A DNA stretch of 64,000 nt from the NCBI GenBank assembly GCA_018394295.1, contig CP074573.1, positions 2,301,156 to 2,365,155 of the forward strand, given 5' to 3'. Shown one piece after another: positions 35,413 to 50,633 of this stretch; positions within the stretch are counted from its first letter, which is position 1, and every line of letters begins with the position of its first letter. A program made the translations under genes and the position numbers. The stretch is from Mycoplasmatota bacterium (GTDB taxonomy: Bacteria > Bacillota_I > Bacilli_A > Haloplasmatales > Haloplasmataceae). Under the pieces are notes generated by a model. That model saw only the letters and a list, made by a program, of their open reading frames with translations. It did no database searches and was not told the origin of the DNA.

Positions 35413-35519
35413 GTTATCACCTTCAATTTATTTTTTACACACTTTTCCAATATATTCATCAAAAAAAAATGTAAAACCTGTTTACATTTTTTAAATCAAA
35501 GTGTATAATGTAAAAGCAT

Positions 35520-35606
35520 GCCAGCGTGGCGGAATTGGTAGACGCAGTGGACTCAAAATCCACCGGAGTCAAATCCTTACGGGTTCGAGTCCCGTCGCTG
35601 GTACCA
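35520..35606 (+). tRNA. tRNA-Leu(CAA), prophage integration site
   Basis: A complete class II tRNA with long variable arm and encoded CCA. Acceptor stem GCCAGCG/CGCTGGT (G-U at the first pair), anticodon stem GTGGA/TCCAC with loop CTCAAAA, anticodon CAA. Its last 55 bases recur exactly at 50123-50177, so the gene remains whole after integration of the element. Confidence 0.97.
35552..35606 (+). repeat. attL: left copy of the 55-bp att repeat
   Basis: The 3' part of tRNA-Leu from the anticodon loop to CCA. It is identical to 50123-50177; the bases just outside differ on both sides. Confidence 0.93.
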
Positions 35607-35631
35607 TGATTTTAAGACTACCTCAACACAC

Positions 35632-35646
35632 GTCCGTTTAACGGAC
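35632..35646. repeat. Perfect 15-bp palindrome beside attL
   Basis: GTCCGTTTAACGGAC lies 26 bases inside the element from attL. No T-run follows. It could help fold the tRNA transcript end or bind the regulator or integrase. Confidence 0.45.
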
Positions 35647-35727
35647 ATCATAAGTAAATTATATACTATGATTTCTTATAAATCAACTATAATTTACAAA
35701 AAATTTAATTGAGGGAGGTATTTTTAA

Positions 35728-35934
35728 ATGAGACTAAAACAAATACGAAAAAAATTAAATTTAAAACAAGAAGATATTGCAAAAATTATTAATTTAAAAC
35801 GCAATAACATATCAAGAATAGAAAATGGAATACAAACATTAAATAATGAACAAATAGTTGAAATATGTAAAACATTAAAAATATCAGCAGATTATCTTTT
35901 AGGATTAGTTGATGAAAACACAGAAAATGAATAA
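35728..35934 (+). CDS. XRE-family helix-turn-helix regulator of the prophage
   Basis: A 68-residue Cro/CI-type protein consisting almost only of the HTH domain (LKQIRKKLNLKQEDIAKIIN ... NNISRIENGIQT) and ending ISADYLLGLVDENTENE. GGGAGG lies upstream. It is divergent in direction from the main gene block and sits beside attL, where lysogeny regulators are expected. Related sequence occurs at 50301 and as a broken fragment at 63.84 kb. Confidence 0.88.
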   Translation: MRLKQIRKKLNLKQEDIAKIINLKRNNISRIENGIQTLNNEQIVEICKTLKISADYLLGLVDENTENE

Positions 35935-35942
35935 CACAACTT

Positions 35943-35967
35943 AGAAAGTCATCACGAATGACTTTTT
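35943..35967 (+). terminator. Terminator after the HTH gene
   Basis: AAGTCAT and ATGACTT form a short stem followed by a long T-run. Confidence 0.75.
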
Positions 35968-35999
35968 TTTATTTACAAAAGAAAGGAGGATAATTAAAT

Positions 36000-36422
36000 A
36001 TGAAATTCAAAAAATTAACAACTAAAATTGATTTAAACGAATTAAGAAAATGTCAATTAAACTTAACTAAAATTTATAAACCTGATCTTTATTATTATTC
36101 ATATAAATACGAAACTACTATAGACAACATACTTAATATACGTAGTCATATTTTAAATGCTAATCAATTTAATTTAATATTACTAATAATCAATAATAAT
36201 GATCAAGATATATTTAATAAAGACATTAGCCTATTAACCTATGAACGCCCTTATCAATTAGAACATATAGAAAAAATAGATGAAGATATTTATTATTGCA
36301 ATATTTTTTTAGACGAGATAAACTATATAGAAAATAAACTTAATCCAGATCAAATAGAAATAATAAAAAGAACTGACATGAAAATAGATAAAGAAAACAC
36401 ATCAAAAGTTATTCCATGGTAA
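36000..36422 (+). CDS. Hypothetical prophage protein (140 aa)
   Basis: AAAGGAGGATAA precedes the ATG, and a strong terminator follows, so this is a real single-gene unit. The protein is hydrophilic, rich in Asn, Asp, Ile and Tyr, without signal or membrane segments. I recognise no family. Its position next to the regulator suggests an accessory or regulatory role rather than structure. Confidence 0.65.
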   Translation: MKFKKLTTKIDLNELRKCQLNLTKIYKPDLYYYSYKYETTIDNILNIRSHILNANQFNLILLIINNNDQDIFNKDISLLTYERPYQLEHIEKIDEDIYYCNIFLDEINYIENKLNPDQIEIIKRTDMKIDKENTSKVIPW

Positions 36423-36423
36423 A

Positions 36424-36457
36424 CTAAAGGTAGAGACTAAACTCTACCTTTTTTTTT
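36424..36457 (+). terminator. Terminator after the 36000 gene
   Basis: GGTAGAG and CTCTACC form a stem followed by at least eight T. Confidence 0.8.
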
Positions 36458-36514
36458 ATATTACTGTTAATAATTAAAATTACTAAAATAATCATTCTTA
36501 ATTTAATAAATTTT

Positions 36515-37864
36515 TTATTTCTTTATCATCAGGTAACTGACACTATATCCCCAAAAAACTTTTTTTATAATATGATTTATTTCATTATCATTAAATTTAC
36601 ATCTAGATAAAAACATAGCATAAGTCAAATACTCTAATATTTTAATATCAAATATTTGAAATTGATCAAATTGTGTATCATAATTTTCATGAACAATATC
36701 ATTTCTTATATCACATACTTTTTTAGCATAAGAAAATAAATCATCATAATCTAAATACTTATACTCTAAAGTACCCTCTATACATTTTTTATATTTTTGT
36801 AAACTATTTATAATTTTTTCAATAGTTTTAACTCTTTTACCAATATTTCCAATTACACTTTTAGCATCTAATAAACATTTCTTCTCATTTTCATTAAAAT
36901 AGTCACAATTGATTTCATTAATCTTATTTAATAAAATTTTTTTTATACCTTTCAAACTAGAATCTTTATGGTTTTTTGTATTATCATATATTTTATTGTA
37001 TTCACTTTCAAATGCAGAAAAAATTAAAAAATATCTTATGACGTCAATATCAAATAAGTCATCATATTTATTAGGCAAATGTTTTACATAAAAACATTTA
37101 TCATCTACAAGAGTTTGAAAGATATCAGAAATATGATTATTTGTTAGTAAAAAACTAGCATTATATGAAGAACTAGAAATTACATCATTACTTTCTATAT
37201 TTGCATACAAATATCCTATTTTATTTTTTTCATTATCATCAATTCCTTTTAAAATTATTTTATTAAAACTAACATTTTTTCTATATGACATCATTTGTAA
37301 AAATTTTAATACAATGTCAAAAATTTGAAATGATATATCTAAATTACTAATTTTATTTAATTGAAAATTTAAAATAGTATTTAGTTTTAAATCACTTCTT
37401 ATACCATCTTTCAAAATATTTCCAACACTTATACTTGATTTGATTCTAATATCTTCAAGATAAAAATTAAAATCCAAAATATCTATTGACTTATATAATA
37501 AATCTTGATTTTGTATACCTTTCCTTTTATTAAACCAAAAATAATCAATTGGACTAATGTAATCAGTTAAATAATTTGACTCAAAACTAATTTCTTTGAA
37601 ATTTTTAATACCATATGATCTAATATAGTATTTTAAAATAAATTCAATATCATTATTACAGTAGTGAGAATATTTTACATTAGCATAAATAATTTCTGAA
37701 GTTACTTCTTCGATAATTGTTATATTAAAATTATACTTAAAAATATACTGTCGCATATATTTTCTATCCGTTTCATTGTCTATACTTACGGTGATTCTAA
37801 ATTTATCAAATACAATATGTGATGTTATATTAAATTTATCTTCAAAATTAATTTTAGCTTTCAT
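36515..37864 (-). CDS. HEPN-domain protein resembling ApeA anti-phage proteins
   Basis: The 449-residue protein has a beta-rich N-terminal half of unknown fold and an alpha-helical C-terminal region. In the latter, CDIRNDIVHEN carries the R-N-x3-H motif of HEPN ribonucleases. The helix starting FLIFSAFESEY and the following long helices fit the ApeA family layout (N-terminal domain plus HEPN). ApeA members act in anti-phage defence, probably by RNA cleavage. It is the last gene of the minus-strand block, nearest attL, a usual place for cargo. The family call rests on motif and layout only. Confidence 0.6.
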   Translation of the reverse strand: MKAKINFEDKFNITSHIVFDKFRITVSIDNETDRKYMRQYIFKYNFNITIIEEVTSEIIYANVKYSHYCNNDIEFILKYYIRSYGIKNFKEISFESNYLTDYISPIDYFWFNKRKGIQNQDLLYKSIDILDFNFYLEDIRIKSSISVGNILKDGIRSDLKLNTILNFQLNKISNLDISFQIFDIVLKFLQMMSYRKNVSFNKIILKGIDDNEKNKIGYLYANIESNDVISSSSYNASFLLTNNHISDIFQTLVDDKCFYVKHLPNKYDDLFDIDVIRYFLIFSAFESEYNKIYDNTKNHKDSSLKGIKKILLNKINEINCDYFNENEKKCLLDAKSVIGNIGKRVKTIEKIINSLQKYKKCIEGTLEYKYLDYDDLFSYAKKVCDIRNDIVHENYDTQFDQFQIFDIKILEYLTYAMFLSRCKFNDNEINHIIKKVFWGYSVSYLMIKK

Positions 37865-37971
37865 ATTTCACCTCAATATAATATATTATTTATCAAAATT
37901 AACATTTTAAAAAATGAATAACTTTTCAGATTAACATAATTACAATTATAAGAAGATAACAAAATAGTTTC

Positions 37972-38118
37972 TTAATCTTGTTCAATTAAAGAATTATATA
38001 TCAATTCAATAAAATGTTCTGGTTTTAAAGGAACTATTGAATTATCAATTTTAGATTTTTCAACAACATCAAACCATTTTTCAATTGCATCTTGTATTAA
38101 GTCACATTTTTCACACAT
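37972..38118 (-). CDS. Small hypothetical prophage protein (48 aa)
   Basis: AAGGAGATAATTTT precedes an ATG encoding MCEKCDLIQDAIEKWFDVVE and ending LIYNSLIEQD. The N-terminal CEKC is a possible metal half-site. The gene is acidic and hydrophilic. Its excellent ribosome site supports it; function is unknown. Confidence 0.6.
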   Translation of the reverse strand: MCEKCDLIQDAIEKWFDVVEKSKIDNSIVPLKPEHFIELIYNSLIEQD

Positions 38119-38137
38119 AAAATTATCTCCTTAAGTT

Positions 38138-38755
38138 TTATTTATTATCTTCTTTTAATTTTAATAATAAATCAGTTTTCTTTAATATCATTGGAAATGA
38201 AGGTATCAAAAGAGAAACAATATAATCATCAAATAAATTTACATTTTTCATAATTGCAAATATTACCATATAACAAAAACATACAATATATAACATTGTA
38301 AATATTATATAATAAAAATAAGCACAATAATTTTTGTCATATTTTTCCTGATACTTTTCCTTAGTTTTTAAACAATAGAAATGAAAAGTAAATAAAATTA
38401 ACATTACATATAAATTAATTATATATAACTCTTGTATATATAATCTAAATATTCCATAAAAAATAACAAAGCATAGTACTGTAAGAAACAGCCTTAAGAT
38501 AATATGTTTTTGTATATTAGTAGTAATTTTTTTTGCACACATATAAATTAAGTTATACATTTTATTGTAATAATTAAGTATTAGAAGTGCTATATATAAA
38601 AATATTATAAGTAATAAAAGCGCAGTTAAATATTTTAAATCATCACCAACTAAATTATTGATATCTTTTACGAAAAACAACCAAAAAAAGAATAAGTATA
38701 TTATAGAATGCTTTGATAATATTTTGTTATACCATTTATTTTTATTCTTAAACAT
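38138..38755 (-). CDS. Multi-pass membrane protein of the prophage
   Basis: The protein is about 205 residues with about five hydrophobic segments, for example IIYLFFFWLFF, YLTALLLLIIFLYIALLIL, LTVLCFVIFYGIFRLYI, LYVMLILFTFHFYCL and YIIFTMLYIVCFCYMVIFAI. Its charged C-terminus ends LLLKLKEDNK. It lies between the integrase and the HEPN gene, so it may be a partner of the defence gene or a superinfection-exclusion protein. The start is the ATG at 38755 (a TTG five codons up is possible). No family is recognised. Confidence 0.6.
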   Translation of the reverse strand: MFKNKNKWYNKILSKHSIIYLFFFWLFFVKDINNLVGDDLKYLTALLLLIIFLYIALLILNYYNKMYNLIYMCAKKITTNIQKHIILRLFLTVLCFVIFYGIFRLYIQELYIINLYVMLILFTFHFYCLKTKEKYQEKYDKNYCAYFYYIIFTMLYIVCFCYMVIFAIMKNVNLFDDYIVSLLIPSFPMILKKTDLLLKLKEDNK

Positions 38756-38912
38756 AAACTCTTCCCCCAACCTACTTGAAATAATAATCGAAATACTATA
38801 ATTAATAATAATATATATTATAATTTTTAGATTAATTAAATTATAACACGAAAACTAGGCTTTTCACCTAGTTTTTTTTAACTAATATCAAATTATTTCA
38901 ACAAAAATTTTA

Positions 38913-39788
38913 TTATGAATATAAATTATGACTATGTTTCTCGTAATCATTTTTCAAATGCTTAAAAGACATATGAAGATATATTTCTGTAGTTTTTAAT
39001 GATGTATGTCCTAATAACTGTTGCAAAGATACCAATGAACCACCACTTTCAAGAAATAATGTCGCAAATGTATGACGTAACATATGAGGATGAAATTTTT
39101 CAATTTTACAATATTCTTTAATTCGATTAAATAAACTCCTAATATTATCATAATTATAATACTTATAAGTTCTATAATTCCATAATAAATATTTACGTTC
39201 AGGTAATAATGATATATATTTTATCATTAATTCTTTAGTTAAATGAGTAAAAAATACAATTCTTTCTTGTTTAGTTTTTGTCTTAGTTAATAAAATCATA
39301 TTATTATCAAAATCAATATTATTAATTTCAATATTTAATAATTCATTATTTCTTACTCCAGTATCCAATAATAAAAATATAATTAATTTTTCAGATAATT
39401 CTACTGGATTATCATCATTAAATCTTAACATAAAAGTAATAATTTTTCTTAAATCACTTTCTTTTACTAAATCAAATCGTTTTTTATCTTCTTTTAATTT
39501 TTCTAAATTAAATAAATAATCATTATTAATATTATTAAAATAAAATACTCTTTTTAATAGATTAATTTTTTTATTTAATGTAATATTTTTACAATTATTA
39601 TGATTCTTAAAATATAAAATCATTTGATTTATAGCCAAATCATCAATATCTTCAATTAATACAACTCCTTTCATCTTAAAATAATTCAACATCGGTTTTA
39701 AATGTTTACATTCATATTTATAAGTATTAATACTTTTTACTAATTCTGAATGTAATAAATAATTTGTTACTGCATTTTCTAATAACAT
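38913..39788 (-). CDS. int: Tyrosine recombinase (integrase)
   Basis: XerC/D-like, 291 residues. The N-terminal SAM-like DNA-binding domain (residues 1-95) is followed by the catalytic domain: Arg in LLDTGVRNNELL, Lys in LTKTKTKQERIV, HPHMLRHTFATLF (His and Arg), LGHTSLKTTEIYLHM (His and nucleophile Tyr). It should join attP to the tRNA-Leu attB. Unusually it is not adjacent to an att site but lies 3.3 kb inside, between rep and the membrane-protein gene. Confidence 0.92.
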   Translation of the reverse strand: MLLENAVTNYLLHSELVKSINTYKYECKHLKPMLNYFKMKGVVLIEDIDDLAINQMILYFKNHNNCKNITLNKKINLLKRVFYFNNINNDYLFNLEKLKEDKKRFDLVKESDLRKIITFMLRFNDDNPVELSEKLIIFLLLDTGVRNNELLNIEINNIDFDNNMILLTKTKTKQERIVFFTHLTKELMIKYISLLPERKYLLWNYRTYKYYNYDNIRSLFNRIKEYCKIEKFHPHMLRHTFATLFLESGGSLVSLQQLLGHTSLKTTEIYLHMSFKHLKNDYEKHSHNLYS

Positions 39789-39805
39789 ATACTTTCATCC
39801 TTTCA

Positions 39806-39832
39806 TAAAAATAAAAGGTAGTGCAAACTACC
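39806..39832 (-). terminator. Terminator after rep
   Basis: GGTAGT and ACTACC around a four-base loop, with TTTTATTTTT after it on the minus strand. It separates the replication genes from the integrase. Confidence 0.7.
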
Positions 39833-39889
39833 CTTCATAATTATAAAATACATTGTAGTCCATAATACTGCAGCTGCACAATGAACATC

Positions 39890-41257
39890 TTAGTTATTTT
39901 CATGTAAACTAAAAACTATTTTATCCGTTTGAGATTGATTAAAAACATTTTGATAAGTTGTATAATAAATTTCATTGTATTCTTCTGTAAAATCTTCATT
40001 TATTTTAACTTCAGGCTTAATTAAATTTTGAGAATTATAATATCTTTGTTTATTTAATCTATCTAAATACTCTGTTTCAGATAAATTTTTTATTGATTTC
40101 ATTAAATAACCTGCAAGATATGTAATAACTCTATCCTTATCCTTAATTTCTTCAATATCTGATTTTCCATATTTCCATATTTTAATACCTTTTCCATATC
40201 TTCTTTCATTTATTTCATAATCATAATCTAACCAAGACGGAATTTCATATAAAAACTCACTAGGTAATTCATTCATTAATAAATGAAAATGAATATTACC
40301 AATAGTTTGATATTCTGGAACACCTAAATAATATAAATCTAACCCCTTTTTTTTCATTTTCTTTTTCAAATTATCTTTAAAAGAAGTGAATTTTTTAATA
40401 CATTCTTCATAATCTTTAGGATCCTTTACATATATAAATTTTAAATTACAATCACTTGTATCACGAGTATCATTATAATGTAAATGTAAATCCTTTTGTT
40501 CATACTCAGCGAATGTTAGAGTAACAAACATTTTAAATTTATCTAAATTACAGCGAGCATAATCAATAATATATTCATAAGATCTACTACAAGAACGTCT
40601 AATTTTATCAACTGTTGGAGTCGGAATTGATTCATCTAATAATAAATATTTCAAAATTGTTTCGTCACTTAAATCTGTTTTATCTTCATTAAGTAATGAT
40701 TCATCATGATTAAATGCATATTCTAACAATCGTTTATATTTTCCATAATAACCTATTTTTATATTTTCACCTAAAACTACATTATTTTCAAAAACATCTT
40801 CTTTCAATGAAGTTAAGTCTTCTGATAATAAATCATATTTTTCATTATTAACTGCATAGTCATATAATCGATTATAACGTTCCTCAATATATTCTAAATA
40901 ATCATGATTATATAAACGATTATATAAACGATTGAAAAGAATATCATCTATATTTCTTATAAAATAACGTGCTTGTGAAGTTAATTGATTATACCAATTG
41001 ATTGTGCCAACTTCTAAAGTTTTAAATTCACGATATAATGTGTTATTGTCATATTGATATATTGGTTTATCATATTGAATTAATTCTACAAAATTATCAC
41101 CAAGCATACGTTTTTTAGATTTAATCTTTATTCTAAACATTTGAACAACAGCACTTTTATAATTTGACGTCCAAATCTCATTTTTAAAAAATTTAAAATG
41201 TTTAGGTAGATTTACAATATCTTTAGATGTAGTAGTTAAACTTTCATGAAGCAACAT
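39890..41257 (-). CDS. rep: Rolling-circle replication initiator (HUH endonuclease)
   Basis: The 455-residue protein has the three Rep motifs in order: motif I MFVTLTFAEYEQ, motif II GNIHFHLLMNELP (HxH metal site, the HUH signature) and motif III RVITYLAGYLMKSI with the nicking tyrosine(s). The motifs occupy the middle of the protein, about residues 225-400. Such enzymes nick the double-strand origin and start rolling-circle replication of filamentous phages and small plasmids. It lies directly after the methyltransferase gene. Confidence 0.85.
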   Translation of the reverse strand: MLLHESLTTTSKDIVNLPKHFKFFKNEIWTSNYKSAVVQMFRIKIKSKKRMLGDNFVELIQYDKPIYQYDNNTLYREFKTLEVGTINWYNQLTSQARYFIRNIDDILFNRLYNRLYNHDYLEYIEERYNRLYDYAVNNEKYDLLSEDLTSLKEDVFENNVVLGENIKIGYYGKYKRLLEYAFNHDESLLNEDKTDLSDETILKYLLLDESIPTPTVDKIRRSCSRSYEYIIDYARCNLDKFKMFVTLTFAEYEQKDLHLHYNDTRDTSDCNLKFIYVKDPKDYEECIKKFTSFKDNLKKKMKKKGLDLYYLGVPEYQTIGNIHFHLLMNELPSEFLYEIPSWLDYDYEINERRYGKGIKIWKYGKSDIEEIKDKDRVITYLAGYLMKSIKNLSETEYLDRLNKQRYYNSQNLIKPEVKINEDFTEEYNEIYYTTYQNVFNQSQTDKIVFSLHENN

Positions 41258-41380
41258 ACTTACACCTCTTTTTTATTCAAATTAATGCATTGATTTTTAT
41301 TTTAACGATAATATGTCCTTATTGACAAGTAATATAAAATACACTATAAAGTTTAATTTGTCAAGAATTATTTTTAAAAA

Positions 41381-42469
41381 CTATATAAATTCATACATAG
41401 ATAATTGATATGTAGATCGATCTATAAATAATTTATAAAATAATTTCTCTAAAACTGAAACCGGAATACTATTACCAGCTAATTTATATAATTGATCTCT
41501 TTTAAAACCATTTTTAACTAACACTTCATAATCTTTATCATCAAAACCTTGAAGTCTTAAACATTCTAAAGGTGTTAAGTACCTCAATCTATAATCATCA
41601 TCAACAACAGTTAAATTATTATTACATGTTATTGTTTGACAATATTGTTTACCAACTCGTCCACGTCTAGTTTTTGAATTACTATAAGCTAAATTAATAC
41701 AATCACCAGGATAAGCATAATCATATCCTTTTTTAGTTGCTTGATACACCTTTATAAGTCCTGGGTTATTCCAACGTTGCATTTTAGTTGTAATAGAATA
41801 ACAAAAATTATCTATAATTTTCACCTTACCAATTTCAACAGCTTTTAACATAGAAGGACAAATATTATAATAGTATTCATCAACATCAGTTTCTAAATAA
41901 TCAGATAACCTTTTTTCTAATTTCATTATTAATGGAAATTCATAAGGAAAATTAACATCATTTCTAATAGATACACAATAAACCCTTTTACGATTTTGAG
42001 GTAAATTATAATCTAAAGAATTTAAAACTTGATAATAAGATGTATATCCAAATTGAATTAATTTATTTAAATATTTACGAAAATTGTATAAGTTATTAGA
42101 TCTAATTGCTTGAGGTACATTTTCCCATATAATATATTTTGGTTTAACTTTTTCAATTATTTTAACAGAATACCACATTAAACTTGAACGAGTTCCTGTA
42201 TTTTCTTCTCCACCTTTATGTTTGCCAGCAATACTAAAATCCTGGCAAGGTGAACCATGAACAATTAAATCATAATAACCTAAATCTAAAATATTAACCT
42301 TTGTTATATCACCTAAATTTTTATCCCTTGATTCATTATGTATTAAAGAATATGCTTTGCTTGGAATAGGATCACATTCACAATAATTAACTAATTCAAA
42401 ATCTATATCTATATTACTTAAAGCTTTTTCAAAAGCACCAATACCACTAAATAAAGACAATACTTTCAT
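41381..42469 (-). CDS. C5-cytosine DNA methyltransferase
   Basis: All main motifs are present in 362 residues: I LFSGIGAFEKAL, IV GSPCQDFSIAGKH (catalytic PCQ), VI IWENVPQA, VIII-like LPQNRKRVYCVSI, then the target-recognition region and X LAGNSIPVSVLEKLF. No restriction endonuclease gene is adjacent, so it is an orphan enzyme that probably protects phage DNA from host restriction or marks replication. The recognition site cannot be read from sequence. Confidence 0.92.
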   Translation of the reverse strand: MKVLSLFSGIGAFEKALSNIDIDFELVNYCECDPIPSKAYSLIHNESRDKNLGDITKVNILDLGYYDLIVHGSPCQDFSIAGKHKGGEENTGTRSSLMWYSVKIIEKVKPKYIIWENVPQAIRSNNLYNFRKYLNKLIQFGYTSYYQVLNSLDYNLPQNRKRVYCVSIRNDVNFPYEFPLIMKLEKRLSDYLETDVDEYYYNICPSMLKAVEIGKVKIIDNFCYSITTKMQRWNNPGLIKVYQATKKGYDYAYPGDCINLAYSNSKTRRGRVGKQYCQTITCNNNLTVVDDDYRLRYLTPLECLRLQGFDDKDYEVLVKNGFKRDQLYKLAGNSIPVSVLEKLFYKLFIDRSTYQLSMYEFI

Positions 42470-42487
42470 GTTATACCACCTCTAATA

Positions 42488-42712
42488 CTACCAATTAAAA
42501 TTATTTTCTTCCCCTGTAATATTTTCATCTGCTTCATCTTCAATAATTACTTCTTTAGATTTATCAAAATCATTAACAGCATTCATTCGATATAAATCGT
42601 TTTGATCTCGTTCATGATTAATAAACTTGAATAACTTTCTTATAATTAATAAATATGTAATTAACATTGATATTGTAATACCAACTAAAAAATATATTAT
42701 TTCTCTTATAAT
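42488..42712 (-). CDS. Small single-pass membrane protein with ATT start
   Basis: AGGAGG lies exactly eight bases before an ATT codon. A stop codon directly precedes that ATT, and the first in-frame ATG is 15 codons later and has no ribosome site. The 74-residue product has one N-terminal membrane segment (EIIYFLVGITISMLITYLLI), a basic patch (RKLFKF) and an acidic tail ending EENNFNW. Its position just before the Zot-type gene suggests a virion or assembly protein. No family is recognised. Confidence 0.55.
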   Translation of the reverse strand: MIREIIYFLVGITISMLITYLLIIRKLFKFINHERDQNDLYRMNAVNDFDKSKEVIIEDEADENITGEENNFNW

Positions 42713-42807
42713 TTAAAACACCTCCTAGATTGTAAAACAATAACGTTATAATTATATTGTTTATTGATATATCGCTTAAAAGGGCTTAAAATCGCTTTAA
42801 ATCGATA

Positions 42808-44091
42808 TTACTTAAAATAGCTTTTGTTTACTCTATTAAACATTAATGCTTGTTGCAAATCTTCAAAATGTACATCAGAATGTTTTATTAATTCACTTTC
42901 AATATAAGAATACTCATGAGTATTGAAGCAGCCAAAACAATATGCTAACGGAATAACAAAAGTATAATCATCATAATAATGTCTAGAATTTGTGTTCTCT
43001 TTGCCTACATCTTCCTCTTTTTGATAAATATTACAATTAAATTCACAGTAGGATTTTGAGAAAAGGAACTTTTGTAAAAATGTTAATTTATATTCAAGTT
43101 TTCGACCGAATACTTTACCTTTTAATTTAACATTAATAAATTGTTCACGTTCATCAACATCAATAATACCTTTTAATAAAGCTAAAATCATAAATCGATA
43201 TCTATTAAAACTATCAACAAATGATAATATTTTATTAATAAAATAATTAATCTTTTTAAAATTTCCAATAACATTTACTTTATTTACAATCTCTATATTT
43301 GTTTGGTACAATCTTCTATGCCTAGCTATTTCATCACTTGAATCTTGTTTAGATGTAATCATATAATTTTTTTCTCTATGCATATTACCATATTTACGCT
43401 TATATTCTTTAGCACCTGATTCATCTTTCATATCTTCATATTGATTAGCTGCACCTAATTCATCTGTTGCTTCATCTTGTAACTCAACAAAATTATCATA
43501 AATAGCATAATTTTTATTCCTATACGCTTCTTTTATTTTAGTCCAATCTAAATCATATTCTAAATTCATTTTATTCGTAATATGACTATAAACACGAGTT
43601 TTAGAATAAACATATTGATCTCGAATATAAATAACATAATAAGCTTCAACATAATTTTTTATTAGTTGTTTAACAGATTCAAAATTTAAAAAATTATATT
43701 TTAAATAATCGCCAAACAAATTATATTTTAAAAGTAATTTATCAGTTATTAAATCTAAATCATTTATATTTTCACGATAATAACAATCTGAAATCACTTT
43801 TTCAAATTCATTAAAATCAATAAAATAAAATTCATTTCTTACCTCTTTCATAATTTCATTATTATTACCCATTATAATTATTTGAAATACATGACTTAAC
43901 CCAGACAACAAGCTTGATTTACCCATTCTAATTTTACCGCAAATACTAATTAAATAACCCAACCTATATTTACAATATCCAACGCTAAAATTAAATAAAT
44001 TTTCATAATATTTTCTATATCTAAATAAAACTAAAATAGGCAAAACCATTAAAATATCAAATAAAATCAAAAGCCAAAAAATTAATAACAT
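42808..44091 (-). CDS. Zot/pI-like membrane ATPase (phage assembly/extrusion)
   Basis: The N-terminus has one long or two short hydrophobic segments (LLIFWLLILFDILMVLPILV), then a P-loop in CGKIRMGKSSLLSG. The segment FVELQDEATDELG fits Walker B, and YMITSKQDSSDEIARHRRLY matches the conserved region after it in Zot proteins. Filamentous phage pI/Zot ATPases drive virion assembly through the membrane. I place the start at the ATG at 44091, well spaced from AAAGAGGTGAT, rather than nine codons upstream. FtsK/HerA-type transfer ATPase is the alternative. Confidence 0.75.
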   Translation of the reverse strand: MLLIFWLLILFDILMVLPILVLFRYRKYYENLFNFSVGYCKYRLGYLISICGKIRMGKSSLLSGLSHVFQIIIMGNNNEIMKEVRNEFYFIDFNEFEKVISDCYYRENINDLDLITDKLLLKYNLFGDYLKYNFLNFESVKQLIKNYVEAYYVIYIRDQYVYSKTRVYSHITNKMNLEYDLDWTKIKEAYRNKNYAIYDNFVELQDEATDELGAANQYEDMKDESGAKEYKRKYGNMHREKNYMITSKQDSSDEIARHRRLYQTNIEIVNKVNVIGNFKKINYFINKILSFVDSFNRYRFMILALLKGIIDVDEREQFINVKLKGKVFGRKLEYKLTFLQKFLFSKSYCEFNCNIYQKEEDVGKENTNSRHYYDDYTFVIPLAYCFGCFNTHEYSYIESELIKHSDVHFEDLQQALMFNRVNKSYFK

Positions 44092-44123
44092 TAATAAATC
44101 ACCTCTTTCATAGATCATATATA

Positions 44124-45833
44124 TTACATTTTTCTAAACTTCTTATAATGATTATGTTTCTTTGATGATGAACTTACTATATTAAGTGGTAACAACAAAA
44201 TAGAGAAAACAACCTTAATTAATAAAGATACAGATTTTAAAATAACAGGTAATAAAGTTAATACAGGTGATAATACAGATAATAAAATAAGTAAAACAAT
44301 AATAATAACAATAACATCTAAATTATCAATTATAAAATTAACTACTGGATGATTAACAATATTATTAATCTTATTTTCTGTATTAAGCATGGCTTTTTGT
44401 ACATCTGATAACTCTTTAGTTGTATCATCAGCCAACGGAACATCAATTACTTCATCCGATACATATGCTACACCTTTATATGAATACCAAAATTTTAAAA
44501 CTACATAATCTTTAATAAAATAATCACTAGGTCTAATCATAGAACTAACTGCTTCTTGTATCCAACTATCACGTTTATACCATAATTCTGTTTGATTCAT
44601 GTCACCAAGAAATATCTTCCAATCATAATTTTCTTTATCACTATGTTCAATAGCATTAACTTGTCCTTTCTTTCCGAAAAGCCCACTAGTATACCAATCT
44701 AATAAACCATGTGAAATATCATAAGTTTCATCAGATTTAATTATTCTTTCATGAGTTTTTTCTGAGCCTTGTATCCAATTAGCATTTTCAAACATATCAA
44801 AAGCCCCAAACGTATAGTAATCTGTATAAGATACTTTCATCATATATATATCATCCATTGGAACATCAGTGTTAAAATGTATATATATTTCATATTTATT
44901 TCTTTTTTCACATTCATCTGATGTTATAGTAACTACATTAACTTTCTCGTATTCTTCATCATTAAGATTCCAAATTAAAGTACTACCATCTTTCAATGAA
45001 AACTCTAAAATATAATAATTTTGATTATTATATTCAGACCTAACCCACTTAGCGTAATTTATATCTTCTTGTTCAATATCAGATGGTAAATTTAAATTAT
45101 TCCAAATATATACATTACTTATAGCGTAAAATTGCAAATCATAAGATGTATCTGTTTTAATGACATTTAATCTACCATAATTTTCATAATTATCTTTTAA
45201 AACATTATCCAATTCAGTCACATTATGAATAACAGTATCATCCGATTTCATATAGATTTCTACTACTGGAATAAACATAGCATTTATAATTTTTCTGTTT
45301 ATTATATCAGTTGCTTGATAATATTCAGGTATAATTTTAATATTATGAATTTCCTTATTAGGATTGATATTAATAAATAAAAAATCATTGTTAAATTCAT
45401 CTATAATTAATCGTTCAGTCTTTCCATCATAATGATATAATAAATCTTTAATTGGATAATATTCATCATAAATAGATTCAAACATAAATTGAATATTTAC
45501 ACTAGATACCTCATTTATATCTAAATTATTATCAACCAATAACTGATTTAAGTTAAATTCAATGTCCCACGATATAGTCTTAGGTAAAAAAACTTTTCTA
45601 ATAGTTTCACCAAAATCATAATGTAAATTCATTATTTTAGCACCTGATGGTAAAGTTAAATATTTAGAATATTCTTCGCAATCAGAATAACATTCCAATA
45701 TACCACCATACATATCTTTGTTTTCGTCATAAGTTAATGGTTGAGTAAAAGCATATGTTTTAAGGTCTTGAATAATCAAGACCTCAAATATTATGACTAC
45801 TAGTGAAATAAAATAAAATATCCTCTTTTTCAC
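44124..45833 (-). CDS. Exported prophage protein with hydrophobic C-terminal region
   Basis: A GTG start with GAGGTGAT gives MKKRIFYFISLVVIIFEVLII, a signal or anchor segment. About 450 mostly beta-type extracellular residues follow, with many Asp, Tyr and Asn. The C-terminus has two hydrophobic stretches (VIVIIIVLLILLSVLSPVL and LLIKVVFSILLLPLNIV) and a basic tail, KKHNHYKKFRKM. The layout (large ectodomain, then C-terminal membrane region) fits a pIII- or pVI-like virion tip protein or a receptor-binding protein. It lies between the Ig-repeat gene and the Zot-type gene. Confidence 0.65.
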   Translation of the reverse strand: MKKRIFYFISLVVIIFEVLIIQDLKTYAFTQPLTYDENKDMYGGILECYSDCEEYSKYLTLPSGAKIMNLHYDFGETIRKVFLPKTISWDIEFNLNQLLVDNNLDINEVSSVNIQFMFESIYDEYYPIKDLLYHYDGKTERLIIDEFNNDFLFININPNKEIHNIKIIPEYYQATDIINRKIINAMFIPVVEIYMKSDDTVIHNVTELDNVLKDNYENYGRLNVIKTDTSYDLQFYAISNVYIWNNLNLPSDIEQEDINYAKWVRSEYNNQNYYILEFSLKDGSTLIWNLNDEEYEKVNVVTITSDECEKRNKYEIYIHFNTDVPMDDIYMMKVSYTDYYTFGAFDMFENANWIQGSEKTHERIIKSDETYDISHGLLDWYTSGLFGKKGQVNAIEHSDKENYDWKIFLGDMNQTELWYKRDSWIQEAVSSMIRPSDYFIKDYVVLKFWYSYKGVAYVSDEVIDVPLADDTTKELSDVQKAMLNTENKINNIVNHPVVNFIIDNLDVIVIIIVLLILLSVLSPVLTLLPVILKSVSLLIKVVFSILLLPLNIVSSSSKKHNHYKKFRKM

Positions 45834-45848
45834 TATATCACCTCATTA

Positions 45849-47453
45849 TTAAAGTAAATTAACTATCCAATTCCAAATAGTTTTAAATAACCAACATATC
45901 CATTCCCAAACCGAAATATACCATGCTTTTTTTACTGGCTCTTCAGGTGTAATAGTAACTGTATCATCTGATTCATCCTCTATTACATTTACTACAGTGC
46001 TAATAGTATCTTCACTACCATCAACAGATGTAACTTTATACGTAACTGCATACATTCCAATAGTAGTTTCATTACCTAAATATTCGTTACTCAAAGTCAT
46101 TACAGATGTTGTTGCAACTACTTCTATCTGATTAGTTGCAGTTAACAAATCAATAATATCTTGATTAGTTAACGTTACAGATTGAGCAACAGTAATAAAA
46201 TAATTATCAGTAAAAAATACTGGTGGAATATCATCCATTACTTCAATAGTAACAGTATGAGTTTGAACATTATTTGATAAATCTTTAACTTCAAAAATAA
46301 CAGTATAAGTTCCTTTAATATGACCTCTACCAGTATAATTATCTGTTTTTATTGTAATTGAATCTGTTATATTACCATCTTTATTGTCATTAGCAGTTAA
46401 CTGACTTTGAATATCAGAAATAGTCAATGTTTCACTACTATTTTTAACAATATTAAGAGGTCCAGTAAAAGTCGGTTTTACATCATCAATAACTTCAATA
46501 GTTACATCATATGTATCATAATTTCCCGAAGTATCAAAACATTCATATGTAACTGTATAAGTACCAACTATATTATAATTAGCAGTATAATTATCTGTCT
46601 TTAATGTAATAGGCAAATCAGAATCATAATTATCGTCAACTGATAAAGCATTTAATACAGTTGTATTAACATCCAATAAAGTAGTCATAGATTGAGTATA
46701 ATTATATGTACCATATATTTCAGGAGAAACAGCGTCACGAACTAATACAGAACAGTCTAAAGTACTTGTATTACCTGATGAATCAGTAACAGAAAAAATT
46801 ATATGCCAATCACCAACAGTATTTTTATTAGCAGTATAATTATCTGTAACAACAGTAATATTAGAAGATATATCACCATCTTCATTATCAAATGCTGATA
46901 AACGTGATTGAATTTCATCTACTGACTTAGGTGAATCTACATTAGTAATAAAAGCAGTTTCACCATTAATAACTGGCTTAGAATCTGTTTTAGTAAAATA
47001 TAAAGTCCATACTTGATTAGTATCTATTTCTTGTACATTACTAAAACTTTGAGCATATATTAATAATTCTGTTTGTGACTCTTCCTCTACCATAATAGGA
47101 TAAGTACCTACATCATCATATGTACCTAATTTTACTTCTCTTAAAAATGTCTTTCCTTGAGCATCATAAACAAGAAAATATAAATCTTTCAAACCTACAA
47201 TATCAGGTTTTATTACATTAATATCACTATATAAACCAAATAAATCTTGCTTATCTCCTGAATATAATTCAATGCCATCAAGATAAGTCGCTCCACCCAT
47301 ATCTTGGTCATCACCTAATTGTAAATATACTCTATCATCTTGTTCTATCCAGTGAGTATAATCAAAATCTTCAGCATTAACATTGATATTTGTAATAAAA
47401 GCAAAACTCATAAATATTGTTAATACAACTAAATAAGAAATAAATTTTTTCAA
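45849..47453 (-). CDS. Secreted Ig-like (DUF5011-type) repeat protein, candidate adsorption protein
   Basis: A signal peptide (MKKFISYLVVLTIFMSFAF) leads to a 150-residue N-terminal domain and four Ig-like repeats of about 75 residues each. Three share the pattern DN.DG.I...I.V.TDNYT ... G.Y.V.FEV.D.SGN, ending V.D...P.F; the fourth is diverged. The protein ends in a Trp-rich amphipathic stretch (AWYISVWEWICWLFKTIWNW). In phages such repeats commonly contact cell-surface glycans. Start taken as TTG at 47453, six bases after AGGTG; GTG at 47462 is the alternative. Confidence 0.72.
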   Translation of the reverse strand: MKKFISYLVVLTIFMSFAFITNINVNAEDFDYTHWIEQDDRVYLQLGDDQDMGGATYLDGIELYSGDKQDLFGLYSDINVIKPDIVGLKDLYFLVYDAQGKTFLREVKLGTYDDVGTYPIMVEEESQTELLIYAQSFSNVQEIDTNQVWTLYFTKTDSKPVINGETAFITNVDSPKSVDEIQSRLSAFDNEDGDISSNITVVTDNYTANKNTVGDWHIIFSVTDSSGNTSTLDCSVLVRDAVSPEIYGTYNYTQSMTTLLDVNTTVLNALSVDDNYDSDLPITLKTDNYTANYNIVGTYTVTYECFDTSGNYDTYDVTIEVIDDVKPTFTGPLNIVKNSSETLTISDIQSQLTANDNKDGNITDSITIKTDNYTGRGHIKGTYTVIFEVKDLSNNVQTHTVTIEVMDDIPPVFFTDNYFITVAQSVTLTNQDIIDLLTATNQIEVVATTSVMTLSNEYLGNETTIGMYAVTYKVTSVDGSEDTISTVVNVIEDESDDTVTITPEEPVKKAWYISVWEWICWLFKTIWNWIVNLL

Positions 47454-47462
47454 TATGTTCAC

Positions 47463-48032
47463 CTAACCTTCTAAAATTTTACGTATATCTTCCAATTCCA
47501 TATCGTGAACATCAATAACATTTAATTCAGTTTTTAATGATTTCATAGCTTGTTTTTTAGCTTCAACATCATCAAGTCTATTCTTTTTATTATCAAAAAA
47601 TAATTCATAATAAACTACTTTTTGAAAATCTTTATTTGTTTTAATAAAATGTTTTAAGTATTTATAAACATCTTCATTTTGTGCTAAGTACTTAACTTTA
47701 TTTTTTTTATCATTAATAACTAATTCATGTTCACCAATATAATTACTTCTAAAAAAATCATTCAACATTTTTGATTTTAAGTTTAGATAATACTTTCTCT
47801 TTTTATCAAAATTATAAATATCATCATAACTAATTTTATGATCTACTTTTATTTGAGTATTTTTTAAATGATTTTTATCTTTTTGTTTATTGTTTTCTTT
47901 ACTGTTTTGTAATTGATCTAAACGAAATTGAGCATATCCTCTTTGACGATTAGTTAATTTATCATCATTTTTTCGTTTAGAATAATAATTAATTTTATCT
48001 GAATCTGAATAATAATTATTTCTAACATTCAA
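47463..48032 (-). CDS. Basic hypothetical prophage protein with shared QR-YA motif
   Basis: About 189 lysine-rich residues without signal or membrane segments. Near the N-terminus it has KRKNDDKLTNRQRGYAQFR, which is clearly related to RMNDDSLTDGQRKYAKNR in the next gene upstream. The central part is highly charged (KENNKQKDKNHLKN). A DNA-binding or packaging role is possible. Start probably TTG at 48032, after AGGTGA; GTG at 48041 is also open. Its stop precedes the next gene's site. Confidence 0.6.
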   Translation of the reverse strand: MNVRNNYYSDSDKINYYSKRKNDDKLTNRQRGYAQFRLDQLQNSKENNKQKDKNHLKNTQIKVDHKISYDDIYNFDKKRKYYLNLKSKMLNDFFRSNYIGEHELVINDKKNKVKYLAQNEDVYKYLKHFIKTNKDFQKVVYYELFFDNKKNRLDDVEAKKQAMKSLKTELNVIDVHDMELEDIRKILEG

Positions 48033-48051
48033 ATAAATCACCTACAATAAA

Positions 48052-48381
48052 TTAATACTTTTTACTTTTATAATCAGGATTTTTAAATTTAAAAGCTCTA
48101 GAAATATTTTTTAATGCTTGAAGATAACCACGAGAACGAGAACGTTCTGCTTTAGTGTACTTCTTATTAGTTTTTGGATTGATTGAGTCTTTCTTAGCTC
48201 TCTTTGTGTGAAATTGTCTCTTTTCTTCTAAAGAATATGGAGCATAATCATTTCCCTCTAATATTTGATTGTAACGATTTTTAGCATACTTTCTTTGTCC
48301 ATCTGTTAAACTATCATCATTCATTCTTTCACCAAAATGCAAAAGTTTCTCTTCTTTTGTATATTCAACTTCTTTAGACAT
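48052..48381 (-). CDS. Small basic prophage protein with tandem QR-YA motif
   Basis: About 109 residues, very basic. It has RMNDDSLTDGQRKYAKNRYN and a second diverged copy, RAKKDSIN...KKYTKAERSRSRGYLQAL. The first copy matches the neighbouring gene product. The pattern R.NDD.LT..QR.YA..R looks like a short helical DNA- or protein-binding unit. Start placed at ATG 48381 after AGAAGAG; the frame is open to 48426. No known family recognised. Confidence 0.58.
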   Translation of the reverse strand: MSKEVEYTKEEKLLHFGERMNDDSLTDGQRKYAKNRYNQILEGNDYAPYSLEEKRQFHTKRAKKDSINPKTNKKYTKAERSRSRGYLQALKNISRAFKFKNPDYKSKKY

Positions 48382-48483
48382 ATTTTTCATCTCTTCTTTC
48401 TTTTTATTATTTATTTTTTTTATCAAATTTTTTTTAAAAAAATACTAACCAAAAAGAATTAAGGTTAGTATTCGTAATACTAA

Positions 48484-48639
48484 TTATTTAATTTGATTGA
48501 AAGTACCACATTTTTCACATTTAACAGATATTTCACCATGTGAAATAATTAAATCATTAGACTTTGCAATCATGTTATTACATTCACTACAATGATATAA
48601 TTTACATTCCTTAGCTTTAATATTTTTACCAGCTGCCAA
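48484..48639 (-). CDS. Com-like zinc-ribbon protein (51 aa)
   Basis: A TTG start after AAAGGTGATGA gives a protein with two CxxC pairs, HCSECNNMI and KCEKCGTFN, about 25 residues apart. This is a zinc ribbon like phage Mu Com, a translational regulator that binds mRNA. The start overlaps the end of the upstream gene by 14 bases, so the two are probably coupled. It was too short to be listed by most gene finders. Confidence 0.65.
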   Translation of the reverse strand: MAAGKNIKAKECKLYHCSECNNMIAKSNDLIISHGEISVKCEKCGTFNQIK

Positions 48640-49180
48640 TATCATCACCTTTTTCATCAACTTCTGAATCTTTAGTAACTGTAATAAATTTAATATCCTT
48701 GTTTTCTTTAGATACTAATATCGCTTCTGATTTACTAAAGTAATTAGTAAATATTTCATTTTCAGTTAAGAAAACATTATACTTTTTATAATTGATATTT
48801 TCTAGATCATTAATTACATGATAAGTTCTTACTGGTACATCATTAATGTATATTGTTTCAATATCTTTAAATTCTTCTTTTTTCATTTTATACTTCGTTG
48901 ATTTTAATTCATCTATTACATTGTAATATCTAGCAACATCATTTATTTTAATCCGACCATGAACATGACCACTAAATCTAACAAATAAATTATATGATGT
49001 TTGATTATATTTTTTATTAAATTTTTTAACTATTTTAACTTGAAATTTCTGTAATTTAGATATTTCTTCTTTAGTCATATCTCTAGAAAACTTTAATACA
49101 GATTCAGAAACATTATTTTTTACACCTTGTTTATTTTTGTTTTCACTTGCATTTACTTCATTATTAGTAGCTGTTGCCAC
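48626..49180 (-). CDS. Hypothetical prophage protein (184 aa)
   Basis: A GTG start directly follows AAGGAGTGATTTAA. The N-terminal 30 residues are disordered and Asn/Lys-rich; the rest is a compact alpha/beta sequence with VRFSGHVHGRIKINDVARYY and an acidic C-terminus (VDEKGDDIGSW). Basic core plus acidic tail is the usual plan of single-stranded-DNA-binding proteins, which filamentous phages need, but no specific homology is recognised. Confidence 0.6.
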   Translation of the reverse strand: MATATNNEVNASENKNKQGVKNNVSESVLKFSRDMTKEEISKLQKFQVKIVKKFNKKYNQTSYNLFVRFSGHVHGRIKINDVARYYNVIDELKSTKYKMKKEEFKDIETIYINDVPVRTYHVINDLENINYKKYNVFLTENEIFTNYFSKSEAILVSKENKDIKFITVTKDSEVDEKGDDIGSW

Positions 49181-49208
49181 TTAAATCACTCCTTCTATCG
49201 TATAGATT

Positions 49209-49394
49209 TTACGTAAATTTACGTTTATTTTTCATTTGATCACTTAAATAAATTAAATCTTTTAGTTCTACTAACTCAATACTTGTTAATCCTGTCTTAA
49301 TTGCACCAAATATAATATCTTTATTACTTGAATCAATAGAAATATACTTTGATAACTCGTTAATAATTAATTGACTTTTTTCAATCTTATTCAT
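49209..49394 (-). CDS. Small hypothetical prophage protein (61 aa)
   Basis: MNKIEKSQLIINELSKYISI ... DQMKNKRKFT, predicted mainly alpha-helical, without membrane segments. AAGGAAGAGG lies just upstream of the ATG. It is part of the dense run of small early genes. Function is unknown. Confidence 0.55.
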   Translation of the reverse strand: MNKIEKSQLIINELSKYISIDSSNKDIIFGAIKTGLTSIELVELKDLIYLSDQMKNKRKFT

Positions 49395-49409
49395 GCTTAT
49401 CCTCTTCCT

Positions 49410-49526
49410 TTAACGAGATAAAACATATTTTTGATACATACAATATATTTGTTTATCTGAATAACAGACCCATTTATACAATCTACCTTTCTTTTCTAAC
49501 TTAGCAATCATATTACTTCTAGTCAT
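49410..49526 (-). CDS. Small basic prophage protein (38 aa)
   Basis: AAAGGAGTTATAAAT precedes an ATG encoding MTRSNMIAKLEKKGRLYKWV and ending YVLSR. The ribosome site is as good as any in the element. The start MTRSNMIAKLEKKG resembles the beginning of a helix-turn-helix, so a small regulator is possible. Confidence 0.55.
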   Translation of the reverse strand: MTRSNMIAKLEKKGRLYKWVCYSDKQIYCMYQKYVLSR

Positions 49527-49628
49527 ATTTATAACTCCTTTCATTAAATTTAAAGGTATGATTATAAAAACAATTATTATGGTGGTTTACACCAAATCAT
49601 CCTACCAACTCCCTTAAATAAATATTAA

Positions 49629-49868
49629 TTACCAAATATTTAAATCACTTTCTACATCACAATGTACACAAAGTAATACTTGTAATTCTAAAAATCTTTT
49701 TTCAACTTCTTCTTTTGACTCAGACACTTCTGTTACAACATAAATATCATCTTCTTTTTTAGTTGGATGATGTAATCTAGAAAATCTCAAAACAATACAT
49801 TCATCTTCAATATCAATAGAAGAAATCACTTGAACATTAATTAATTGATTATTAAATTTAATAAACAT
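49629..49868 (-). CDS. Small hypothetical prophage protein (79 aa)
   Basis: MFIKFNNQLINVQVISSIDI ... ends CDVESDLNIW. It is beta-rich at the N-terminus, then charged helix, soluble. GGGGGGTG lies upstream of the ATG. No family recognised. Confidence 0.55.
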   Translation of the reverse strand: MFIKFNNQLINVQVISSIDIEDECIVLRFSRLHHPTKKEDDIYVVTEVSESKEEVEKRFLELQVLLCVHCDVESDLNIW

Positions 49869-49904
49869 ATTTTCACCCCCCTTTTGTTTTTTTTCAAAAT
49901 CTAA

Positions 49905-50015
49905 TTAACATAACTCCTCACAACTAAGGTAAATAAAAAACAATCCAATATTAGATTCATCTTTACGATCTAAAAATAACTTGAATTGTTTTGATGTAAT
50001 TTCTTTAATAGTCAT
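49905..50015 (-). CDS. Small prophage protein (36 aa), first gene of the block
   Basis: GGAG precedes the ATG; product MTIKEITSKQFKLFLDRKDE ... LSCEELC. It is the first open frame of the minus-strand block nearest attR. It is very short, so certainty is limited. Confidence 0.45.
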   Translation of the reverse strand: MTIKEITSKQFKLFLDRKDESNIGLFFIYLSCEELC

Positions 50016-50046
50016 TTCGTAAACAACTCCTTTAAATTTTAAATAA

Positions 50047-50122
50047 AAAAAACTACCCACTTCTTTTTAGTTGGTAGTTTAAAAAAAATATACAAAAATA
50101 CCAACTATTTATAGTTGGTAGT
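50047..50122. terminator. Two hairpins next to attR
   Basis: ACTACCC ... TTGGTAGT with flanking A/T runs (50052-50080) and ACCAACTA ... TAGTTGGT (about 50100-50119) lie between the first phage gene and attR. Both share the GGTAGT arm also used in the rep terminator. They could insulate the element or form part of a replication origin. Confidence 0.45.
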
Positions 50123-50177
50123 CTCAAAATCCACCGGAGTCAAATCCTTACGGGTTCGAGTCCCGTCGCTGGTACCA
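50123..50177 (+). repeat. attR: right copy of the 55-bp att repeat
   Basis: Exact copy of tRNA-Leu positions 35552-35606. Only the 3' part of the tRNA is present, so this is not a functional tRNA gene. Confidence 0.93.
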
Positions 50178-50217
50178 CTAAAGACCTCTCGAATAGTATG
50201 GAAATATGATAAATTAA

Positions 50218-50240
50218 TACTATTATATTATTAAATAGTA
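50218..50240. promoter_or_regulatory. Dyad upstream of the second HTH gene
   Basis: TACTATT and AATAGTA are arranged symmetrically about 60 bases before the gene, with another AATAGTA half-site at 50192. This suits autoregulation by the XRE protein. Confidence 0.35.
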
Positions 50241-50627: not shown

Positions 50628-50633
50628 CAGAAA

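Follow-up and report, generated by a model that had tools for sequence, protein, structure and literature searches.

A tRNA-Leu prophage of a Haloplasma combines plasmavirus L2-like candidate virion genes with a rolling-circle replication gene

What kind of virus, if any, resides in the tRNA-Leu gene of contig CP074573.1 (assembly GCA_018394295.1)? The stretch analyzed here, which we call the window, comprises 64,000 nucleotides of that contig (positions 2,301,156 to 2,365,155 of the forward strand) and carries a 14.6-kb element that an earlier note, made from the letters alone, had described as a filamentous-phage-like prophage. We take the host as a Haloplasma, a wall-less bacterium. With moderate confidence we propose a temperate virus of a plasmavirus-related lineage, one that probably has an envelope and buds, and that would employ rolling-circle replication. 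Its nearest sequenced virus by predicted virion gene set is plasmavirus L2 (Plasmaviridae, NC_001447), and common descent with L2 is demonstrated, at the level of protein comparison, for the integrase family and for part of the putative virion module, namely an ORF1-type membrane protein encoded beside an immunoglobulin (Ig)-repeat protein. By the tests made, the element is better placed beside the plasmaviruses than among the filamentous phages and is a member of neither; its virion form, an envelope acquired by budding, would follow from analogy. Apart from the viruses L2 and L172, L numbers below denote loci and G numbers genomes.

The limits of the element are well defined. ARAGORN places a tRNA-Leu(CAA) gene at 35520-35606 on the plus strand, and a perfect second copy of its final 55 bases (35552-35606) lies at 50123-50177, a spacing of 14,571 bp. 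The runner-up among exact direct repeats with 5-20 kb spacing within 34001-52000 is only 18 bp long, which excludes a chance origin of the 55-bp repeat and confirms the bracketed unit as the earlier note had drawn it. GC content in 2-kb windows is 19-26% inside the element and 25-31% on the left flank, and nearly all element genes lie on the minus strand, with a divergent Cro/C1-type gene at the left end. The corresponding locus, a DUF421 gene (Pfam) followed by tRNA-Leu, is empty of the element in G001 and G003 (76% identity to the window over ~880-895 aligned columns), and the right flanks of these two empty loci do not match that of the window. The window's genome amounts to 3.29 Mb in two contigs. 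The genes on which the argument turns are these (aa, amino acids; TM, transmembrane; Rep, replication initiator):

35520-35606, plus strand: tRNA-Leu(CAA) gene, the last 55 bases being the left att copy (ARAGORN, repeat search)
38913-39788, minus strand: tyrosine integrase (PF00589, 5e-32; L2 ORF5 match)
39890-41257, minus strand: HUH rolling-circle Rep (PF23343, 4.6e-12; phrog_3584, 5.9e-17)
42488-42712, minus strand: 74-aa protein with one TM segment and an acidic C-terminus (in L008, L010 and L011, relatives adjoin the ATPase gene)
42808-44118, minus strand: P-loop ATPase with N-terminal TM segment, putative genome-export or assembly motor (motif residues invariant 7/7)
44124-45833, minus strand: exported 569-aa membrane protein with two C-terminal TM segments (hydropathy), L2 ORF1 homologue (hhalign)
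45849-47462, minus strand: exported Ig-repeat protein, putative spike or envelope protein (PF16403, 3.8e-11; L2 envelope protein, 3e-34)
50123-50177, plus strand: right att copy, 55 bp, same as 35552-35606 (repeat search)

The strongest link to L2 runs through the 569-aa membrane protein. Its family, C7 (a profile of seven sequences), aligns with the L2 ORF1 family (twelve sequences, two of them second copies) at 96.7% by hhalign, with an E value of 3.2e-10 over 233 columns. In the controls, 40 column shuffles reached at most 0.3% and a reversed profile 0.7%, while nine other families scored at most 34% against ORF1 (the Ig family, over the first 40 columns of ORF1) and at most 3.7% against C7. 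Removal of the bridging sequences of L047 and L108 left 92.9% (E 3.8e-7). The integrase matches L2 ORF5 with 31% identity over residues 1-285, nearly its full length (2.6e-35). Two traits of the Plasmaviridae, an ORF1-type membrane protein (44124-45833) and an integrase combined with integration into a tRNA gene, are accordingly present in the element, and L2-related prophages likewise integrate into tRNA genes (PMC12662186). Element and L2 further resemble one another in size (~12-15 kb), in their mollicute-like host and in the shared succession of Ig envelope protein, ORF1-type protein, ATPase and integrase.

Related loci extend this picture. The window's ATPase as a single query matched 7 of 120 genomes, and a seven-row ATPase profile matched 37 of 395 genomes of the class, the window's own included in both counts; 12 of the profile matches were strong (E <=1.4e-55), although seven of those 12 genomes, again including its own, are themselves rows of the profile. 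A search of the class with L2 ORF3 matched 13 of 390 genomes, and L2-type stretches were fetched from 11 of the 13, leaving out the two weakest. Gene content was then compared over 28 loci with hidden Markov models (HMMs) that include members of the set, so members score by construction. The twelve loci with an L2-type ATPase (L101, L103-L113, with one element present twice, as L104 and L105) all carry the integrase, with the Ig protein in 11/12 and an ORF1 match in 8/12; at L109 and L113 the protein in the ORF1 place is an ORF1 match in profile comparison (90.9% and 97.5%), and L108 has a C7 match (4e-10) in place of ORF1 together with its L2-type ATPase. Among the twelve strong window-type loci, the Ig protein and the integrase each occur in nine, ORF1 or C7 in eight and a rolling-circle Rep in nine; contig ends truncate L012, L049 and L050, and the L048 stretch is an entire 16-kb contig. 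In four loci with weaker ATPase matches (L051-L054), fewer of these genes are shared; the L051 contig holds an integrase, Ig genes and a distant ATPase relative. The order Ig - C7/ORF1 - ATPase - integrase recurs in the window, L008, L2, L101, L103, L104, L106, L107, L108, L110 and L111, and in L048 and L050 as far as their contigs reach. L010 and L011 are mixed, combining a window-type ATPase with L2-type ORF1 and ORF2, and in these loci L2 ORF1 matches proteins that adjoin the Ig genes (6e-10 and 2e-6).

The group behaves as mobile DNA. Five window-type loci end at a tRNA gene: the element described here (Leu, 14,571 bp, 55-bp repeat) and others at Phe (12,133 bp, 52 bp), Arg (13,280 bp, 57 bp), Gly (11,825 bp, 25 bp) and Thr (10,542 bp, 41 bp). 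L2-type elements have att repeats at tRNA-Arg (L106, 11,614 bp), Lys (L108, 9,801 bp, with a repeat of only 21 bp), Glu (L109, 9,652 bp) and Val (L113, 12,953 bp). With the tRNA-Trp case below, the prophages (9.7-14.6 kb) use tRNA genes of nine kinds. G218 contains an exact tandem of two copies (a 10,583-bp exact repeat), and in G056 an exact repeat of 12,987 bp recurs at a spacing of 12,941 bp, which is likewise a tandem. G072 carries an L2-type prophage in tRNA-Trp (46-bp repeat, 10,748 bp), and a separate contig of 9,492 bp from that genome is 99.9% identical to the prophage in two pieces. Since these pieces meet at the att repeat, the contig spans the circular junction.

While the module persists, the replication gene does not, and comparison of the encoded proteins indicates that it is exchanged among window-type loci. 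The window, L048, L049 and L050 carry an HUH Rep, L008, L010, L011, L013, L047 and L053 a Rep_trans protein, and L014 and L045 a relative of replisome organisers; L053 additionally holds two HUH-Rep fragments. These types were assigned with Pfam and PHROGs for L008, L010, L013, L014, L045, L047 and L048 and by clustering for the others. The window's Rep belongs to the ORF2/G2P family (Pfam, PHROGs), and H323, H325, Y380 and Y384 of its HxH and YxxxY motifs are invariant (4/4).

Several observations weigh against the plasmavirus-related reading. The Ig protein, which would correspond to the ORF13/ORF14 envelope trait of the Plasmaviridae, had L2 as its sole match (3e-34, 144 bits) in a tblastn search of 50,697 phage records at E 1e-3. 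However, host Ig proteins match equally well or better, scoring up to 196 bits. Of 120 relatives searched, 43 genomes matched the Ig protein at 1e-10, and 12 of the 14 stronger loci fetched from outside the set lack any other gene of it (one of them, L116, being a 4-kb contig); the remaining two, L125 and L126, do carry other set genes, and both places had already been found by the ATPase searches. The seven of those 12 loci whose surroundings were inspected have ordinary host neighbors. Because host proteins outscore L2, Ig similarity alone cannot identify a virus group; the control search shows it to be generic, and we rejected the spike's likeness to L2 as decisive evidence. The case for L2 therefore rests on ORF1/C7, the integrase, gene order and the mixed loci. 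Here too there are reservations: a C7 profile made from the window and L008 alone drops to 59.7% (E 8.9e-5) against ORF1, and gene order departs in L010, L011 and L047, where the ATPase gene is next to the Rep, ahead of the Ig and ORF1/C7 pair that adjoins the integrase. HMM searches of the window at 1e-3 gave no homologue of L2 ORF2, ORF3, ORF4, ORF10, ORF11 or ORF12, and the small TM family scored 0.2% against L2 ORF2 by hhalign. The window's ATPase was rejected as a homologue of L2 ORF3, the alignment covering 14-24 columns of Walker A (64.4% or 30.0%, depending on direction). L2 itself is enveloped, is thought to bud and has a double-stranded DNA genome that replicates bidirectionally (PMC12662186), whereas the window's Rep implies a rolling circle. 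Unlike L2, with its theta-type origins, the element combines an HUH Rep, an ATPase of another family and cargo genes. Finally, no circular form or particle was seen for the window's own element, whose ATPase is present once in its genome.

The host Ig proteins deserve separate mention: L117-L124 and L127-L129 hold a host family of ~520-610-aa Ig surface proteins, which is possibly the source or a sister of the viral spike.

All 7/7 aligned sequences of the ATPase share K67 (Walker A), D215-E216 (Walker B), Q258 and R268, a pattern that we take, from the motifs, to fit an FtsK/HerA-type motor. The ATPase has no Pfam match, its best PHROGs match is at chance level (E 0.16), and the neighboring 569-aa protein likewise found nothing better than chance in either database. 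No match to the ATPase was obtained in 50,697 phage records, in 72,556 plasmid records (a search that covered the ATPase and not the Rep) or in viral contigs; the earlier note had named a grouping of ATPase and Rep with plasmid or ICE families as grounds for refutation, and none appeared within these searches. Single-sequence searches of genome contigs and viral contigs gave no match either, an alignment search of genome contigs found a same-genus locus alone, and alignment searches of viral contigs (three with the ATPase, one with the Rep) were empty. A PDB profile search yielded matches of E 0.42 or worse, and an AlphaFold2 model from two sequences (pLDDT 45.2, pTM 0.27) was of a quality from which we draw nothing. 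The label "Zot/pI-like" given earlier holds as far as the P-loop ATPase goes and fails for the likeness itself: against Zot/pI, hhalign gave 7.5% when the profile held 11 sequences and 5.8% when it held 15, aligning Walker A alone, and an ABC control protein scored higher (38.7% and 20.2%). The Zot family PF05707 matched 14 of 247 class genomes, eight of them over cut-off, and none of these matches lies in the window's genome. Two side observations concern these proteins. Distant matches of the ATPase profile in L028-L037 include several long ATPases with GxxGxGKD and ETE motifs from the same bacterial class. Acidic-aromatic C-terminal tails recur in Rep, ATPase and other proteins of relatives (L008 11851-13098; the ATPase C-termini in alignment A1); they presumably resemble the tip of single-stranded DNA-binding protein (SSB).

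It was the L2 ATPase, rather than that of the window, which resembled the filamentous-phage motor. The L2 ORF3 family (14 sequences) aligned with five Zot/pI proteins at 96.1% (E 3.5e-9, 136 columns; hhalign). A set containing the G178 protein had given 95.7%; this protein is matched both by PF05707 (over cut-off) and by L2 ORF3 (2.3e-23) and is itself a member of the ORF3 family, and sets without it, one of which gave 96.0%, replaced that set. Against single proteins the ORF3 family scored 95.7% (class protein L059), 89.3% (M13 pI), 14.5% (L060), 4.6% (B5) and 0.6% (Pf1), and 21% against M13 plus Pf1; the controls DnaX and ABC reached 57% over 82 columns and 23%. As a single sequence L2 ORF3 gave 68.8% and no Pfam call. 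This resemblance of L2 ORF3 (L085 2278-3216), seen by family profile, has no mention in the ICTV profile of L2. In addition, a short protein encoded upstream of the spike in some L2-type loci has a signal-like N-terminus, a TM segment and a lysine tail, recalling pVIII. Such proteins were identified by rule in L104, L106 and L113 and by eye, without passing the rule, in L101 and L103; coat-like proteins of 60-74 aa with basic tails also occur in the window-type loci L011, L013 and L047. The rule, a simple one of hydropathy and charge that may miss genes and also flags other small TM proteins, found no coat gene in the window, L008, L010, L014, L045 or L048. In some relatives there is one pVIII-like preprotein upstream of the spike (L104 4781; L106 15181), and L2 ORF12 (L085 8657-9130) looks like two such units fused. 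Plasmaviruses and filamentous phages may hence be related, judging by the likeness of ORF3 to pI, and the two ways of reading the element are closer to one another than taxonomy suggests.

The element's remaining genes are as follows (ORF, open reading frame; HTH, helix-turn-helix):

35728-35934, plus strand: Cro/C1-type HTH protein, transcribed away from the main operon and probably a repressor (PF01381, 2.9e-14; relative in L008)
36000-36422, plus strand: 140-aa protein, function not assigned (no match over cut-off)
36515-37864, minus strand: possible HEPN protein, cargo or defense (weak; HEPN_Apea E 0.66, below cut-off)
38138-38770, minus strand: 210-aa cargo protein predicted to span the membrane five times (hydropathy; S_4TM only E 0.037)
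41381-42469, minus strand: C5-cytosine DNA methyltransferase, cargo (PF00145, 1.1e-64; PADLOC type II methyltransferase models)
47463-48041, minus strand: basic 192-aa protein, isoelectric point 9.4, candidate genome-condensing protein (same family as 48052-48426 and L008 6824)
48052-48426, minus strand: basic 124-aa protein, isoelectric point 9.9, putatively of the same role (same family as 47463-48041)
48484-48660, minus strand: Com-like zinc ribbon (PF10122, 6.9e-6, over cut-off; phrog_6417, 2.9e-5)
48626-49180, minus strand: 184-aa protein in the place of a family conserved in relatives (no match over cut-off)
49209-50060, minus strand: four small ORFs at 49209, 49410, 49629 and 49905 (relatives of 49629 in L008, of 49410 in L053)

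About a dozen ORFs between the att copies encode fewer than 200 aa, and the Pfam and PHROGs scan of 20 ORFs returned no terminase, portal, relaxase or conjugation match. The integrase, HUH Rep, Ig-repeat protein, methyltransferase and small genes reported before were all recovered. The HEPN label is weaker than had been claimed: the product of 36515-37864 reached 10.8 bits against a Pfam cut-off of 24.4, and PADLOC gave no match at E 0.01. It does contain R-N-D-I-V-H, which resembles Rx4H, a motif of HEPN proteins. For 48626-49180, a role as SSB is a guess from position, the profile match to the relatives' family at that place being only 34.9% (hhalign, E 4e-4). The small TM gene at 42488-42712 has an apparent ATT start behind AGGAGGTG; this rare start is likely, given that the homologue in L008 reaches farther upstream than the first ATG in the window's gene.

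How do other explanations fare? The element could be a true filamentous phage (Tubulavirales) with a diverged pI as its ATPase, a pIII-like Ig protein, a pVI-like two-TM protein and the small TM protein as coat, extruded as filaments. The order 48626 - Ig - two-TM - ATPase indeed recalls V - III - VI - I of M13, the rolling-circle Rep, the layout and the lack of a recognized lysis gene are shared with inoviruses and other Tubulavirales (M13, Pf1, B5, plectroviruses), and the coat-like basic-tail proteins of relatives and the pI-like ATPases of L2-type loci point the same way. A membrane ATPase with N-terminal TM segment is also found in "atypical" inoviruses; in the accessible part of Roux 2019 (PMC6813254), such atypical pI proteins occur in ~30% of inovirus species, some of which may be separate virus groups. 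We nevertheless judge a filamentous phage unlikely. An HUH Rep is not unique to filamentous phages, no Zot/pI match to the ATPase was found by HMM or profile, and the putative spike is of Ig type. The simple rule found no pVIII-like gene: the inovirus coat protein is short, 30-90 aa with one TM segment (same partial source), and the 74-aa product of 42488-42712 is within this range but has an acidic rather than a basic tail. The element also exceeds the 5.5-10.6 kb range of Inoviridae (PMC8491893), though a 16-kb inovirus genome is reported in the available part of PMC10061712. The filamentous label of the earlier note is thus not established, for want of a Zot/pI protein and a basic-tail coat gene, and keeps some substance through L2 ORF3 and the pVIII-like proteins of some L2-type relatives; its view of the element as a prophage in a tRNA att site, representing a new group in wall-poor Bacillota, is supported.

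Less probable still, and in our view quite unlikely, is an element that makes no virions of its own, be it decayed, a satellite, or an integrative plasmid encoding an exported adhesin. No coat gene was recognized, the left third is rich in cargo (methyltransferase, HEPN-like and five-TM proteins), and Rep families of this group occur on plasmids too; on the other side, the main ORFs are open, the att copies are identical, the module is kept with different Reps across several genomes and the ATPase is unmatched in the plasmid records. Independent capture of host surface genes as spike and membrane proteins, with convergence accounting for the likeness to L2, strikes us as very improbable, even with close relatives of the spike among host Ig proteins, in view of the controlled ORF1/C7 homology and the mixed loci.

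Under the favored reading of a plasmavirus-related virus, the tyrosine recombinase would integrate and excise the element at the 3' end of tRNA-Leu(CAA), and the HTH protein would maintain repression. The excised circle might then be replicated by rolling circle upon nicking by the HUH Rep, as its family suggests, condensed by the small basic proteins and driven out by the membrane ATPase. As in L2, virions could bud as membrane vesicles without lysis, the Ig protein serving as spike and the two-TM protein residing in the membrane, and the virion genome may be single-stranded. The overall mode would be plasmavirus- or pleolipovirus-like with filamentous-phage-type replication. The comparison with Pleolipoviridae is one of organization: as here, a stable block of spike, membrane protein and ATPase is combined with swapped replication genes (available part of PMC10599561), and the vesicle-like virions of that family are what the element's genes lead us to expect. 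By hhalign against two pleolipoviruses, the ATPase reached at most 1.5%, by which homology to VP8 was rejected, and ORF6 and ORF7 at most 0.5%.

L172 infects Acholeplasma laidlawii. The accessible parts of reviews from 2014 and 2018 describe it as an enveloped mycoplasma virus with 14 kb of single-stranded DNA and with no sequence (PMC4284463, PMC5867852), and by these descriptions it would resemble the element in size, in the expectation of a single-stranded, rolling-circle genome and in an envelope-type gene set. According to the available portion of PMC10599561, it is not phylogenetically related to pleolipoviruses. The element is a candidate genome type for L172. More tentatively, and with rather less confidence than in the reading above, we suggest that it represents the sequence type of enveloped single-stranded DNA bacterial viruses such as L172, with plasmavirus-type envelope genes and rolling-circle replication; together with the ORF3-pI resemblance, this would join Plasmaviridae and filamentous phages as one assemblage that switches between extruded filaments and budding vesicles.

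Within the open literature searched, the prophage group is undescribed: among the listed titles and abstract beginnings of open PMC papers, none described such Haloplasma prophages or a link between ORF3 and pI. One prophage region, which may be this element or another, was counted in H. contractile (AFNU00000000) in the accessible part of PMC7761423. L2 has so far been nearly an orphan. Haloplasma and other members of the class are now seen to encode relatives of its integrase, spike and membrane protein together with new replication genes, and L2 ORF3 is similar to a filamentous-phage motor. These findings offer sequence handles on the origin of capsid-less, budding bacterial viruses, and the identity of L172 becomes directly testable.

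Two observations concern the right flank. Just beyond the att copy, a second HTH gene (50301-50627, PF01381) resembles both the element's own HTH gene and that of L008, and is possibly left over from a different element that used this tRNA gene. Farther right, 50838-63601 contains several transposase-like genes, one of which is identified as rve by Pfam.

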